A stretch of 64,000 nucleotides of DNA, from NCBI RefSeq assembly GCF_011044155.1, contig NZ_CP049056.1, forward strand, positions 2,604,001 through 2,668,000, written 5' to 3'. Shown here one piece after another: positions 36,516 through 42,697 of the stretch (the first letter of the stretch is position 1; every line of letters starts with the position of its first letter). The notes beneath the pieces are model-generated. The model ran no database searches and had not been told where the DNA came from. It worked only from the letters and a program-made list of their open reading frames with translations. A program made the translations under genes and the position numbers. The stretch is from Pikeienuella piscinae. GTDB lineage: Bacteria > Pseudomonadota > Alphaproteobacteria > Rhodobacterales > Rhodobacteraceae.

Positions 36516-38174
36516 TTACATATTCGGATAATTCGGCCCGTCGCCGCCCTGCGGCGTGCGCCATTCGATGTTCTGACTCGGGTCCTTGATGTCGCAGGTC
36601 TTGCAGTGAACGCAGTTCTGCGCGTTGATCTGAAAGCGCGGCCCGGCGCCATCTTCGCCTTCGATCACCTCATAGACCCCGGCCGGGCAATAGCGCTGCG
36701 CCGGTTCCGCGAATTTCGGCAGGTTGACGCCGATAGGTATGCTTGGATCGAGCAGATGCAGATGGCTTGGCTGGTTCTCTTCGTGATTCGTGCCGGAGAA
36801 GCTGACATTGGTGAGCCGGTCGAAGCTCAACTTGCCATCCGGACGGGGATAGTCGATCGGCTTGTGCTTCGCCGCCGCCTCGGTCGCCGCAGCGTCGGAC
36901 TTGCCGTGACGGAGCGTGCCGAAAAGCGTGAGCCCGGTGAGGTTCGCAAACCACATGTCGGCGCCGCCGCCGACCAGTGAAGCAGCGAGGCCGTATTTCG
37001 ACCAGAGCGGTTTGACGTTCCTGACCCGTTTCAGGTCTTTCGCGATCGGGCCGGAGCGCACATCGGCGTCATATTCCGTCAATTCGTCCGACGCGCGCCC
37101 TTCGCCGATGGCCGCAAACGCCGCTTCCGCCGCCGCCTTCCCCGAGAGCATGGCGTTGTGATTGCCCTTGATGCGGGGGACGTTGACCATGCCTGCGGCG
37201 CAACCGAGGAGCGCGCCGCCCGGGAACGTCAGCTTCGGCAACGACTGCCAGCCGCCCTCGGTGATCGCCCGCGCGCCATAGGCGACGCGCTTTCCGCCCT
37301 CCAGGGTCTCGGCGACCATCGGGTGATGCTTGAAGCGCTGGAACTCCATGTAGGGATAGAGATAGGGGTTCCGGTAATTCAGGTGGACGACGAAGCCGAC
37401 CAGAACCTGATTGTTGTCGATGTGATAGATGAAGGAGCCGCCGCCCGCATTGCCGCCGAGTGGCCAACCCATCGTGTGCGTGACGCGGCCTGGGTGGTGA
37501 TGTTCCGGCTTCACCTCCCAAATCTCCTTCATGCCGAGGCCGTATTTCTGCGGCTCGCGACCTTCGGCCAGCCCGAATTTCGCGATCGCCTGTTTCGAGA
37601 GCGAGCCTCTGACGCCCTCCGCCAGCAGCACGTATTTGCCATGCAGCTCCATCCCGGGCTCGTAGCCCGGGCCCTTGGTTCCGTCCTTCTCGACGCCGAA
37701 CTCGCCAGCGACGACGCCTTTCAACGCGCCGTTTTCGTCATAGACCAGTTCGGAACAGGCCATACCCGGAAAGATCTCGACGCCGAGTTCCTCGGCATGT
37801 TCCGCCATCCAGCGGCAGACATTGCCCATGGAGACGATGTAGTTGCCGTGGTTGTTCATCAACGGCGGCATCGGGAAATTCGGAACCCGGACCTGGCCCG
37901 CCTCGCCGAGGATATAGAAGCGATCCTCGGTCACCGGCACGTCGAGAGGCGCCCCCCGCTCCTTCCAGTCTGGGATCAACGCGTCGATCCCCGATGGATC
38001 CAGGACGGCGCCGGAAAGAATATGCGCGCCGACCTCGGAACCCTTTTCCAGCACCACGACGGAGATATCATCGCCGCCAAGCTGCTTCAGGCGGATCGCG
38101 GCGGACAAGCCGGCCGGGCCGGCGCCGACGATAACGACGTCGTATTCCATCGATTCGCGGCTGCTCTCGCTCAT
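36516..38174 (-). CDS. Electron-transfer flavoprotein-ubiquinone oxidoreductase
   Basis: ETF-QO passes electrons from reduced ETF to ubiquinone. The protein has 552 residues from ATG 38174 (AGAGG upstream); a frame from 38225 adds 17 residues unlike the family. The N-terminal FAD site YDVVIVGAGPAGLSAAIRL is at about 10-28. The membrane and quinone region lies in the middle. A C-terminal [4Fe-4S] domain has ligands in NCVHCKTCDI and QNIEW, ending PNYPNM. It accepts electrons from the two acyl-CoA dehydrogenases encoded upstream on the same strand. ETF alpha/beta genes are not in the window. Confidence 0.97.
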   Translation of the reverse strand: MSESSRESMEYDVVIVGAGPAGLSAAIRLKQLGGDDISVVVLEKGSEVGAHILSGAVLDPSGIDALIPDWKERGAPLDVPVTEDRFYILGEAGQVRVPNFPMPPLMNNHGNYIVSMGNVCRWMAEHAEELGVEIFPGMACSELVYDENGALKGVVAGEFGVEKDGTKGPGYEPGMELHGKYVLLAEGVRGSLSKQAIAKFGLAEGREPQKYGLGMKEIWEVKPEHHHPGRVTHTMGWPLGGNAGGGSFIYHIDNNQVLVGFVVHLNYRNPYLYPYMEFQRFKHHPMVAETLEGGKRVAYGARAITEGGWQSLPKLTFPGGALLGCAAGMVNVPRIKGNHNAMLSGKAAAEAAFAAIGEGRASDELTEYDADVRSGPIAKDLKRVRNVKPLWSKYGLAASLVGGGADMWFANLTGLTLFGTLRHGKSDAAATEAAAKHKPIDYPRPDGKLSFDRLTNVSFSGTNHEENQPSHLHLLDPSIPIGVNLPKFAEPAQRYCPAGVYEVIEGEDGAGPRFQINAQNCVHCKTCDIKDPSQNIEWRTPQGGDGPNYPNM

Positions 38175-38281
38175 GGCTACGCCTCTTTTTTCTGTATCTC
38201 GGCGGGTCTGGCTCTCGCGTTCCATTTATGTTGCGGCGCGGGGCGGGGTCAATCTTGACGCCGCCGCGCCGCCCACACAAC

Positions 38282-40462
38282 TCATCGAAACCGGTCTATC
38301 ACGCCGCGTCCAAGCCGGTAGAGCCGACGCGACAACGGCGGCTCGGTGGGCGTGAAACCGCCGGTCGGCGCATTGGCGGTCGCGCGGAGCGCAGCCTCGA
38401 GATAACCGGGATGAAAAGCTTCCGGCGCCGGCGCCGCCTCCACATCGCGGCGCCAACCCTCGATGGGCGGCGCGACACCTATGCTCCGCAGCAATGGCGC
38501 CGAGCGTTCCTCGAACCGCTCGATCAGGCGAAGCCGCGCCTCCGCCGGGATCGCCATGAGGCCGCGGATCGCGGGAAGCGCGGCAGTCGCGGCCAGAAAT
38601 TCCGCAAAGGCGTCCGCCTGCGCTCTCTTATCCAACCGCGCCAGGGCGATCATCCGCCCGGCGATGGCCTGCTCCGCGCGCGGCGAAGGATAGATTACGC
38701 CTTCTGGCGGATCGGGCGGCGGCGGAACGCCGAGCGCCGCGTAGAACCGCTCCAGAAGGCTCGCCCCCTCCACCGTCTCATAGCCGATCAACTCCAGGGC
38801 GCCGTTCGCGAACTTGCGCCAGTCGGCGGTCAGGCAGGTCAGGTCGGCCATCTGCGGGCCAAGTTCGGCGGCGAACTCTTCGGCCGTGCGCCGGGCCCAG
38901 CCCGTGGCGAGAAAGACGTGCTCGCGCCAATATCGTTCGACATATTCATCAGGGCGGCGAAAGACGGCGATCACCTGTCGACGCGGCAGGAAGCCGAACC
39001 CGGCCGCCGCCCGCCGCATGAGAAAGGCGCGGTCGGCGGCGCCATGAAATGGCAGGCTCAGATTCTCGGCGCTGATGAGAACGCGCGAACAGCCAGAGGC
39101 GACGCATTCCGCCCTCAGCCGCTCGAAGATGGCGCCGTCGCCGCTCCGGATGGCGCCGAAGAAGCCGACATGGCCGGGGGTCGCCGCCCCGCGCCGGTTG
39201 TCGGCGACCGCTTTCAGGAATCCGGTCTCCGGCACGAGCAGGCCAAGCGCCTTCAACCGCTCGCTGTCGCGCTCCAGCACCCGTTGCAGATAGGTCGATC
39301 CGGTCTTGTGAAGGCCGATATGGAGGATTAGCTCCATATCCATCGTCGGCCCGGTCGCCGCGATCGCAGGCTTCAGCACCTGCGCGCGCCGCCAATCGTA
39401 TAGCGCGTCCCAGCGCCCCGCGGCGACCATGTCATATGCGCTCATGAGCTTCGCCCGGCTGACCGGGCCGTGATTGCGCGTCGACTTGTCGAGCGGCGAG
39501 ATCTTCATCGTCGGAAGATCGGCGAAAACCTTGCGGCGCAGCTTCAGACCTGAAATTGCCGCCGTCAGCCGGGCACGGGCGCCGTCCAGCGCAGGGCTCT
39601 GTCGCGGATCATGGTCGAGCGCGCGCACCTCCCAGATCACCCGGCAGATAGAATGGTGCAATTCGCGCTGCAAGGCCATCGACCGGTCGCCTTCGGCGCC
39701 GGCGTATGCGCGGGCGCGCGCGACGCATTTCGTCAGTAGGTCGAGCTGCATCGCCACATCCTCGATCTCCCGCTCGCCGGTGGTGATCGAGCCGAGCCTG
39801 CGACGCCAGATGCGCGCCGGGATGTCGGAAAAGGCGATCTTCTTCGCCGAAAACACGGCTTCGAGGACGAAAAGCCTGTCTTCGAACCGGCGCTGCGCCT
39901 CGTCGAACCGAACACCGCGCCCGACCAGGAAGTCGCGCCGATAGATCGAGGACCAGGAAGAGACGATATATTGCGCCTCAGGCGCTTCCTCGAACGTCGC
40001 GCCCGAATTTCGCCGTCCAAAAAGCAATTCGTCCCGTCGAAGCGGAATCGGATGCAATCTGTCGACCGGGAGAAGCAGCGTTGGCGCATGCGTGAGATCA
40101 GCGCCCGAGCGCGCGGCGAAGGCGAGATTCTTCGCCAGCGCGCCGGCGATGAACACATCGTCCGCGTCGATGAATGTGACGAATTCCTTCTCCGCCGCGT
40201 CGATCCCGGTGTTGCGCGCGGCGGCGAGACCGCGGTTCTCCGCATGTGCGATGACGCGGATCGGATGTCGGGCCGCGATTCCCGATAGGAACGCCGCGCT
40301 CGACGGTCCCGGATTGTCGTTCACCACGATCACTTCGAGATCGTCGATCGGCTGAGCGACGGCGGATGTCACCGCCGCCTCCAGATAGACCTCGTCGCGA
40401 TAGAAAGGGATGACGACGGAAAGGGAACGCGCCGCCGTCATTGGCGCGCCCCCGCGCCGCAC
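38282..40462 (-). CDS. Glycosyltransferase family 2 fused to a sulfotransferase-like domain
   Basis: The protein has 726 residues. Residues about 12-300 form a GT2 domain: SVVIPFYRDEVYLEAAV, then EVIVVNDN, and the metal/sugar site VTFIDADDVF. Residues about 370-700 form a P-loop sulfotransferase-like domain: ILHIGLHKTGSTYLQRVL (PAPS 5'-phosphosulfate loop) and RRQVIAVFRRPDEYVERYW (3'-phosphate region). GTG 40462 follows GGAGGG at a 7-base distance. Such a protein could add and sulfate a sugar on a polysaccharide or lipid. It sits oddly in a beta-oxidation block, 24 bases from the FadJ-like gene. Acceptors are unknown. Confidence 0.8.
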   Translation of the reverse strand: MRRGGAPMTAARSLSVVIPFYRDEVYLEAAVTSAVAQPIDDLEVIVVNDNPGPSSAAFLSGIAARHPIRVIAHAENRGLAAARNTGIDAAEKEFVTFIDADDVFIAGALAKNLAFAARSGADLTHAPTLLLPVDRLHPIPLRRDELLFGRRNSGATFEEAPEAQYIVSSWSSIYRRDFLVGRGVRFDEAQRRFEDRLFVLEAVFSAKKIAFSDIPARIWRRRLGSITTGEREIEDVAMQLDLLTKCVARARAYAGAEGDRSMALQRELHHSICRVIWEVRALDHDPRQSPALDGARARLTAAISGLKLRRKVFADLPTMKISPLDKSTRNHGPVSRAKLMSAYDMVAAGRWDALYDWRRAQVLKPAIAATGPTMDMELILHIGLHKTGSTYLQRVLERDSERLKALGLLVPETGFLKAVADNRRGAATPGHVGFFGAIRSGDGAIFERLRAECVASGCSRVLISAENLSLPFHGAADRAFLMRRAAAGFGFLPRRQVIAVFRRPDEYVERYWREHVFLATGWARRTAEEFAAELGPQMADLTCLTADWRKFANGALELIGYETVEGASLLERFYAALGVPPPPDPPEGVIYPSPRAEQAIAGRMIALARLDKRAQADAFAEFLAATAALPAIRGLMAIPAEARLRLIERFEERSAPLLRSIGVAPPIEGWRRDVEAAPAPEAFHPGYLEAALRATANAPTGGFTPTEPPLSRRLYRLGRGVIDRFR

Positions 40463-40486: not shown

Positions 40487-42697
40487 TCAGGCCGCCTTCG
40501 TCGCCTCGTGCCGTCCGTAGAAACTCTCCCCGGCCTCGGCGACGTCGCGCAGCAGCTTCGGCGCAGTGAAACGCGGCCCGTGCTTCTGCGCCAGCCGGTC
40601 GCAGATTCGAACGACCTCGTCTGCGCCGAGCATGTCGATCCAAGAAAACGGCCCGCCCGACCACGGCGCGAAACCCCAGCCGAGGATCGCGCCGACATCG
40701 CCTTCGCGAATGTCCTCCAGCACGCCTTCCTCCAGCGCCTTCACAGCTTCGAGCACCTGCGCCAGCATCAGCCGGTGCTGCACTTCGGTGACGTCGGGTT
40801 GCTCCTTGGCCAGCGGGAAATGCTCCTGCAAACCACGCCAGAGGCCCGTGCGCTTGCCGTTCTCGTCATATTCGAAATAGCCGGCCTTGGATTTCCGGCC
40901 CAAGCGACCGGCGTCGAAGAGAACCTGCACCACGTCGTCGCCGGGATTCTCCGGGTAATCGTCGCCCAACGCCGCCTTCGTCGCCCGCATGATCTTCTCC
41001 GCGAGATCGATCGAGGTCTCGTCCCCAAGCTGCAGCGGGCCGAGCGGAAAGCCGAGCTGCTTCGCCGCGTTCTCGATCAGCACCGGTTCTATTCCCTCGG
41101 CGACCATCCGCGCCGCCTCGCCGCCATAGGGAATGATGCAGCGGTTGGCATAGAAGAATCGCGCGTCGTTGACGACGATCGGGGTTTTCCGAAGCTGGCG
41201 AACGAAATCGAGCGCTTTCGCGACCGCTTCGTCTCCGGTCTTCTCGCCCTTGATAATCTCGACGAGCATCATGCGGTGAACCGGGCTGAAGAAATGGATG
41301 CCGATGAACCGCTCGGGGTCACGGCTGGCCTTCGCCAGTTCCGAGATCGGCAGGGTCGAAGTGTTGGTGGCGAAGATCGCTTCTTCCGGCAATTCCGCCT
41401 CCGCCTGTTTCGTCACCTCGCCCTTGACGCCCGGATCCTCGAACACCGCCTCGACGACCAGATCGGCGCCCTTCAGCGCGGCGTAATCCGGCGTGGCCGT
41501 AAGGCGCGAAAGCACGGCGTCCTTCGCCTCCGCGGTCAGGCGTTTTTTCTTGACGTCGTCGTCCAGAAGCCCGGTGATCGTCGCGAGGCCCTTGTCGGCC
41601 GCCGCCTGATCGCGGTCCATCAGCACGACCTCGATGCCGGCGCGGGCGGAGACATAGGCGATGCCGGCGCCCATCATTCCGGCGCCGAGCACGCCGAGTT
41701 TCTTGACTCTCATGTCGGGCACGTCCTTCGGGCGAACCGCGCCCTTCTCCAGCGCCTCCTTGTTCAGAAAGAGCGAGCGGATCATCGCCGCTGAGGTAGG
41801 GTTGAGCATGATGCTGGTCATCCACCGCGCCTCGATCCGGATCGCGGTGTCGAAATCAACCTGCGCGCCCTCGTAGATCGCGCTCATCAGCGCCTTCGCG
41901 GCGGGATAGACGCCCTGCGTGCGCCCGTGGATCATCGCGATCCCGCCGGCCATGGTCTGGAACCCCTGCGGCGTGTAGGGCGCGCCGCCGGGCATCTTGT
42001 AACCCTTCGCGTCCCAGGGCTTCACCAGGTCGGCCTCGGACGCTTTCGACACCCAGGCTTTCGCCGCCTCCATCAGCGCCTCGGGCGGGACGATTTCATC
42101 CACCACTCCAGCGGCTTTCACCGCCTTGGGCGCCATCATCTTGCCCTCGAAAAGGAACGGTGAAGCGCCCATCACGCCGAGCATCCGCGCAAGCCGCGTC
42201 GTGCCGCCGGCGCCGGGGAAGATGCCGACGAGAATCTCGGGAAGGCCGATCTTCGCCTTCGGATTGTCGGCGACGATCCGGCGATGGCAGGCGAGGCCGA
42301 GCTCCAGCCCGATCCCCGCCGCCGTGCCCGGCGACGCCCAGACCACCGGCTTGCCACCCTTCTTCGTCTTGAAGTCCATTCCCGCGAGTTCGATCTTCCG
42401 CAGGAGCCGATGCATCCGCATCACCCCTTCGAATACCGCCTCGGCCGGCGCACGGCCCGCAGCTTCCGCGGCTTTCCGGGCTTTGCCGAGGATGTTGAGG
42501 TCCATCCCACCGGCGAAATCCTTCTTCGCCGATGTCAGCACGATTCCCTTGACCGCATCGTCGCCAAGCGCCTTGTCGAAAGCGGCGTCAAGCTCCGCGA
42601 TCCCGCCCTCGGTCATCACGTTCATCGAGGCGCCGGGCAGGTCCCAGGAGATGACCGCCACGCCGTCGGCGTCCACTTCGTAGTTGAAAATGGTCAT
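40487..42697 (-). CDS. Bifunctional enoyl-CoA hydratase / 3-hydroxyacyl-CoA dehydrogenase (FadJ-like)
   Basis: The protein has 736 residues from ATG 42697 (GAGGAGAGAGAC upstream). The N-terminal crotonase domain (about 1-260) holds [22 protein letters not shown]. The C-terminal 3-hydroxyacyl-CoA dehydrogenase (about 320-720) opens with the NAD site [20 protein letters not shown] and has [19 protein letters not shown]. It performs hydration and oxidation in fatty-acid beta-oxidation. It lies 10 bases downstream of the thiolase gene in a single transcript direction. Confidence 0.95.

Follow-up and report, generated by a model that had tools for sequence, protein, structure and literature searches.

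What is a protein that joins a family 2 glycosyltransferase (GT2) to a sulfotransferase-like half doing among the genes of beta-oxidation? The question is raised by one gene of the window (the whole stretch of 64,000 nucleotides of Pikeienuella piscinae DNA that was analysed), in which the first-pass annotation had recognised one protein uniting a GT2 domain with a half that carries GLHKTGSTYLQ. The frame, of 726 residues, is present as claimed (Table 1), with both FIDADD and GLHKTGSTYLQ in its translation, and the coordinates of the open reading frames also bear out the spacing of 24 bases to a FadJ-like gene and the placement between this gene and the one encoding the ETF-ubiquinone oxidoreductase (ETF-QO). 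What these two halves would do together, and whether their neighbours have anything to do with it, is addressed below.

The fusion gene and its glycosyltransferase half

The GTG start of the fusion lies 24 nt past the TGA of FadJ and is preceded, 7 nt to its 5' side, by a GGAGGG Shine-Dalgarno-like motif, with an in-frame ATG as the alternative start. That this is a genuine gene rather than a frame open by chance is shown by full-length homologues in other genomes and by a dN/dS of ~0.27 in both domains when the window fusion is compared with that of a 65% identical congener. The C-terminal extension is the least conserved part, with 46% identity and a dN/dS of ~0.5 against the congener.

Table 1. 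Features of the fusion gene and its two neighbours in the window (residues counted from the ATG at 40441)
Feature	Position	Strand	Remarks
GT2-sulfotransferase fusion gene	38282..40462	-	726 aa from GTG 40462; 719 aa from ATG 40441
GT2 (GT-A type) glycosyltransferase domain	39782..40441	-	~residues 1-220; PF00535, PDB GT2 relatives, alignment of 14 fusions
DADD metal/nucleotide-sugar motif	40157..40168	-	residues 92-95; D92, D94 and D95 invariant in 14 fusions
Middle region joining both domains	39347..39781	-	~residues 221-365; without Pfam match; helical in low-confidence model
Sulfotransferase-superfamily domain	38672..39346	-	~residues 366-590; from profile comparisons
P-loop / 5'-phosphosulfate-binding motif GLHKTGST	39293..39316	-	residues 376-383; aligned to GLPRAGST of Pfam-detected sulfotransferases
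SAENL motif	39059..39073	-	residues 457-461; Glu459 is a candidate catalytic or acceptor-side residue (putative role)
3'-phosphate-binding motif RRPDEYVER	38933..38959	-	residues 495-503; usual Ser (503) is Arg here
Variable C-terminal extension	38285..38671	-	residues 591-719
FadJ-like multifunctional beta-oxidation enzyme	40487..42697	-	24 nt upstream; neighbour only, outside the system
ETF-ubiquinone oxidoreductase	36516..38174	-	PF05187 and PF21162; downstream neighbour only

Judged by the family it matches, the N-terminal half is a GT2 glycosyltransferase. It scores 91.8 bits against PF00535 (GT-A type), for which the curated cut-off is 23.3 bits (E 6e-26), and solved GT2 enzymes in the PDB match it in sequence searches, the best at 6e-14. 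In the alignment of 14 fusions, NDNP (41-44), DxDD (92-95), FEDR (186-189) and W212 are invariant, E187 and D188 being the downstream acidic (ED) motif, so that both the DxDD and the ED motifs of the family are kept. Unlike other members of the family, the fusion has 500 further residues, including the sulfotransferase-type domain, and its N-terminal half falls far under every curated cut-off of the NCBIfam equivalogs; therefore, neither the sugar nor the linkage can be named.

The C-terminal half and the PAPS sulfotransferases

The assignment of the C-terminal half is less direct. Against PF13469, with a gathering score of 27 bits, the window protein reaches 15.9 bits and its congener 24.7 bits (positions 5-194, 5e-5), and since the window half stays under the cut-off, profile methods were used. 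One profile (A4) was built from the C-terminal halves of the 14 fusions only, and a broader one (A5) also took in standalone relatives. Compared by hhalign with 41 sulfotransferases that PF13469 or PF00685 had picked out of related genomes, A4 gave a probability of 96.0 (E 3.8e-9, 180 columns), and the controls (APS kinase, Lon, ETF-QO and FadJ, two of which are P-loop families) gave at most 0.4. In this alignment, GLHKTGST stands opposite GLPRAGST, FRRPDEYVERYW opposite the RRHPMGCCFSAY region, and the LIGYE strand opposite RVLYE. A sulfotransferase HMM free of fusions, run on 596 proteins, recovered two fusion C-terminal halves at E 3e-5 (positions 4-197 of 257) with both PAPS motifs in register, and on the window protein the same HMM marked both motifs weakly, again in register. 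Among the PDB sequences, the fusion-only profile A4 had no significant match, whereas A5 (hmmsearch) found the sulfotransferase 3rnl at 9e-4, SULT4A1 at 0.008 and weaker SULT matches. The profile-profile match, the PDB sulfotransferases and the register of the motifs thus make the membership of this half in the PAPS-sulfotransferase superfamily well supported at the level of sequence.

Within that superfamily (PF13469, Sulfotransfer_3, and PF00685, Sulfotransfer_1), the fusion has the 5' P-loop and the 3' Arg in register and the third conserved strand aligned, but differs from the typical members in remaining under the Pfam gathering score, in a P-loop of the form HKT(G/A)(S/T)T, in an invariant SxE and in a 3' Ser that is mostly lost. 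The P-loop residues G376, H378, K379, T380 and T383 are invariant in the 14 fusions, S457 and E459 in the 14 fusions and 8 standalone relatives, and R495 of the 3' motif in the 14 fusions and the standalone relatives. The Ser of that motif, which as a rule touches the 3'-phosphate, is replaced by Arg in the window protein and its congener, and was found by inspection in 5 of 15 fusions. Two AlphaFold jobs yielded models of low confidence (pLDDT 42 and 58, with only two sequences put in), too poor to bear on the GT-A fold of the one half or the sulfotransferase fold of the other; Foldseek and VIA-align on these models returned generic alpha/beta matches under informative scores, with no sulfotransferase listed.

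The beta-oxidation neighbourhood

On the same strand, the order of the genes is MerR regulator, two acyl-CoA dehydrogenases, GST-like gene, thiolase, FadJ, fusion and ETF-QO. The likely start of ETF-QO, at 38174, gives it the N-terminus MSE..REAMEYD that its orthologues conserve, and therefore 107 nt separate it from the fusion stop; the start of the longest frame, at 38225 (36516-38225), is probably wrong, the orthologues backing 38174. On the other side, a scan for promoters and terminators between FadJ and the fusion detected no sigma-70-like site and no terminator excess, nothing rising above chance. Together with the short gap of 24 nt and the Shine-Dalgarno-like motif, the lack of such an isolating site makes it likely, as a prediction, that the fusion is co-transcribed with FadJ.

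Does sharing a transcript imply sharing a pathway? The adjacency of FadJ and the fusion is found in the window genome only. In three congeners (G001, G002 and G003, ~1 kb downstream being examined in the last) the linkage is absent and other genes follow FadJ. G001 has the fusion followed by a histone-deacetylase-like gene and then ETF-QO, with FadJ on another contig. Elsewhere, the fusion lies within ~5 kb of lon in eight other genomes, in six of which it is also next to or near tgt; lon and tgt were confirmed by NCBIfam in one locus, and at the remaining ones we take the genes to be lon and tgt from their sequences. At the remaining loci, the fusion has parC and etfAB nearby, stands between nadE and gltB, or has another setting, and on chromosomes it mostly occurs as an orphan, away from glycan clusters. 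ETF-QO, in turn, is often found across the wider family beside a gene that, from its sequence, we presume to be greA. The functional tie to the fatty-acid genes that their proximity might suggest was accordingly not borne out: the linkage to FadJ, thiolase and ETF-QO is not conserved by synteny, membership of the fusion in the beta-oxidation block was rejected, and the fatty-acid setting looks like an accident of the window lineage.

Two side observations concern these loci. In congeners, the place after FadJ that the fusion takes in the window is occupied by a methyltransferase-like gene and by two genes resembling the halves of a sulfopyruvate/phosphonopyruvate decarboxylase (L139 2903-4624; L140 3217-4941). 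Histone-deacetylase-like genes (PF00850) are near sulfotransferase-domain genes in two genomes (L064 16549-17754; L063 11605-12699), adjoining the fusion in G001 and ~2 kb from a 646-aa sulfotransferase-like gene in G018.

Distribution of the fusion and its relatives

The architecture is not unique to the window, as a survey of GT2-sulfotransferase fusions made clear. Among 394 genomes of the same family, sampled at nearly one genome per genus, 13 from 12 genera encode a full-length fusion, amounting to 14 proteins with 29-65% identity to that of the window. In contrast, among 385 genomes across the class no full-length fusion was found outside the family, the only one being that of the window genome itself. 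Four Leisingera plasmid records hold further copies, ~31% identical, and viral contigs gave GT2-type matches and one short sulfotransferase-like match. Standalone relatives of the sulfotransferase half are also present, three of them in the window genome and others elsewhere in the family.

Plasmid DNA of Qingshengfaniella (L101 8251-12054; L306 6825-10628) encodes a larger glycosyltransferase-containing protein of ~1267 aa to which the fusion profile aligns with both its halves, which suggests that GT2-sulfotransferase fusions may have had more than one origin. Contig 16 of another genome (G008; L065 1630-8883) bears several adjacent sulfotransferase-like genes, detected with the sulfotransferase HMM. 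Both domains are already known; in the literature searched, no bacterial glycosyltransferase-sulfotransferase fusion was found, which is not proof of absence, and the public annotation of the Leisingera relative names only the GT2 half.

Glycan context and supply of PAPS

A glycan setting is seen on plasmids of Leisingera aquaemixtae and L. caerulea, where the relatives of the fusion are encoded among glycosyltransferases, an ABC exporter, Poly_export and a UDP-galactopyranose mutase (glf), together with three other annotated sulfotransferases, each matching a Pfam sulfotransferase family. This setting of export genes and sulfotransferases supports a surface-glycan role. The relative WP_259966063.1 ('glycosyltransferase family 2 protein') shares the two-domain architecture with the window protein over its full length at ~31% identity; however, it belongs to a plasmid polysaccharide export cluster, whereas the gene of the window stands as an orphan on the chromosome. 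A second copy in genome G149 (L100) groups with the Leisingera plasmid copy with a support of 1.0 and is near a sulfotransferase-like gene recognised by motif, weak in the sulfotransferase HMM. The polysaccharide context comes from one divergent clade (L100 and L240). In its own right, the Leisingera plasmid NZ_CP081054.1 (L240, 4829-35339), with the fusion relative, three annotated sulfotransferases, an ABC exporter, glf, a rhamnosyltransferase and Poly_export, is a candidate sulfated-capsule plasmid.

An APS kinase is encoded in the window genome and in all 13 fusion genomes. The supply of PAPS was also considered as a discriminating test and failed: APS kinase is near-universal, being present in 137 of 149 family members, and therefore does not discriminate.

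Fusions of a sulfotransferase domain with another glycan-modifying domain exist in animals, where the N-deacetylase/N-sulfotransferase (NDST) combines it with a deacetylase. The likeness drawn here is one of architecture, and the partner in the window protein is a glycosyltransferase instead of a deacetylase. NDST is named in PMC13353177. Regarding bacteria, the sulfated capsule cluster of Cobetia marina KMM 1449 has separate glycosyltransferase, sulfotransferase and PAPS-synthesis genes (PMC11766843); the window fusion would belong to the same kind of pathway, but a glycosyltransferase-sulfotransferase fusion was not found in the part of the cluster description consulted (PMC11766843).

A proposed mechanism and its alternatives

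The analysis establishes the fusion, its conservation, the family of both halves and the PAPS-making capacity of the genome. On this ground, the reading that we favour, and hold to be rather probable, is that of a cytoplasmic enzyme of two domains, one attaching a sugar to a surface glycan and the other probably sulfating that glycan, its beta-oxidation setting being the product of a relocation. In such a Rhodobacteraceae-type lineage, the GT2 domain would lengthen a lipid-linked or surface glycan from a nucleotide-sugar donor, and the PAPS-sulfotransferase-superfamily domain would then probably move sulfate from PAPS onto that glycan, possibly capping or marking it; catalysis by either half, the use of one acceptor by both and the sequence of the two steps are all deduced. 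The neighbourhood of FadJ and ETF-QO would have arisen when the fusion was relocated in the window lineage, where it is probably carried along on the beta-oxidation transcript while standing outside that pathway. Several points weigh against this reading: the window half scores under the Pfam threshold, the 3' Ser is kept in only 5 of 15 fusions, the structural models are poor, APS kinase is too common to discriminate, most chromosomal copies are orphans, and the polysaccharide context is confined to one clade. Of the earlier proposal of one enzyme for a sulfated glycan, the part that stands is the fusion of a GT2 to a sulfotransferase-superfamily domain, with a Leisingera plasmid context that fits a sulfated surface glycan; a functional tie to the fatty-acid genes, in view of the synteny, is not supported. 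A stricter version is tentative and somewhat doubtful: one polypeptide would add a sugar and then sulfate that same residue, as a coupled enzyme restricted to one alphaproteobacterial family, which in that reading would have been overlooked because databases see the GT2 half only.

The main rival to a bifunctional enzyme is a protein in which the GT2 half works and the sulfotransferase-like half is degenerate and non-catalytic, binding a nucleotide or the glycan acceptor, so that the glycan would be unsulfated. In its favour, inspection shows the 3'-phosphate Ser to be lost from 10 of the 15 fusions (Arg in the window protein), and the window C-terminal half stays under the Pfam gathering score; nonetheless, K379, T380 and T383 of the P-loop and R495 of the 3' motif are invariant in the 14 fusions, and the purifying selection on the sulfotransferase domain equals that on the glycosyltransferase domain, so that we regard a degenerate half as unlikely, if worth serious attention. 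Both domains could instead be active but apart, each with an acceptor or a complex of its own, so that the fusion would merely co-localise two steps of one surface-glycan pathway. The standalone relatives of the sulfotransferase half in the window genome and the family would fit such a division, as would the separate sulfotransferases that the plasmid clusters retain beside the fusion, but the halves have been kept together in full-length orthologues across 12 genera, which suggests coupling and renders separate acceptors improbable. Least credible, and in our view barely worth entertaining, is a function within the beta-oxidation block, for instance in turning fatty-acid intermediates into a sulfated glycolipid: the short distance to FadJ, the Shine-Dalgarno-like motif of the fusion's own, the likely co-transcription and the single gene between fusion and ETF-QO in G001 speak for it, yet other genes follow FadJ in G001, G002 and G003, and in eight other genomes the fusion is near lon, in six of them near tgt as well.

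Significance

The fatty-acid neighbourhood, which could be read as a clue to function, would thus be a local accident. Beyond this locus, genes have been poorly matched to the sulfated glycans on the surface of marine-type bacteria, and since the sulfotransferase half escapes the Pfam thresholds, fusion genes of this kind are counted as plain glycosyltransferases. If the coupled activity is true, a glycosyltransferase-sulfotransferase of this family would be a ready-made enzyme for sulfated glycans.
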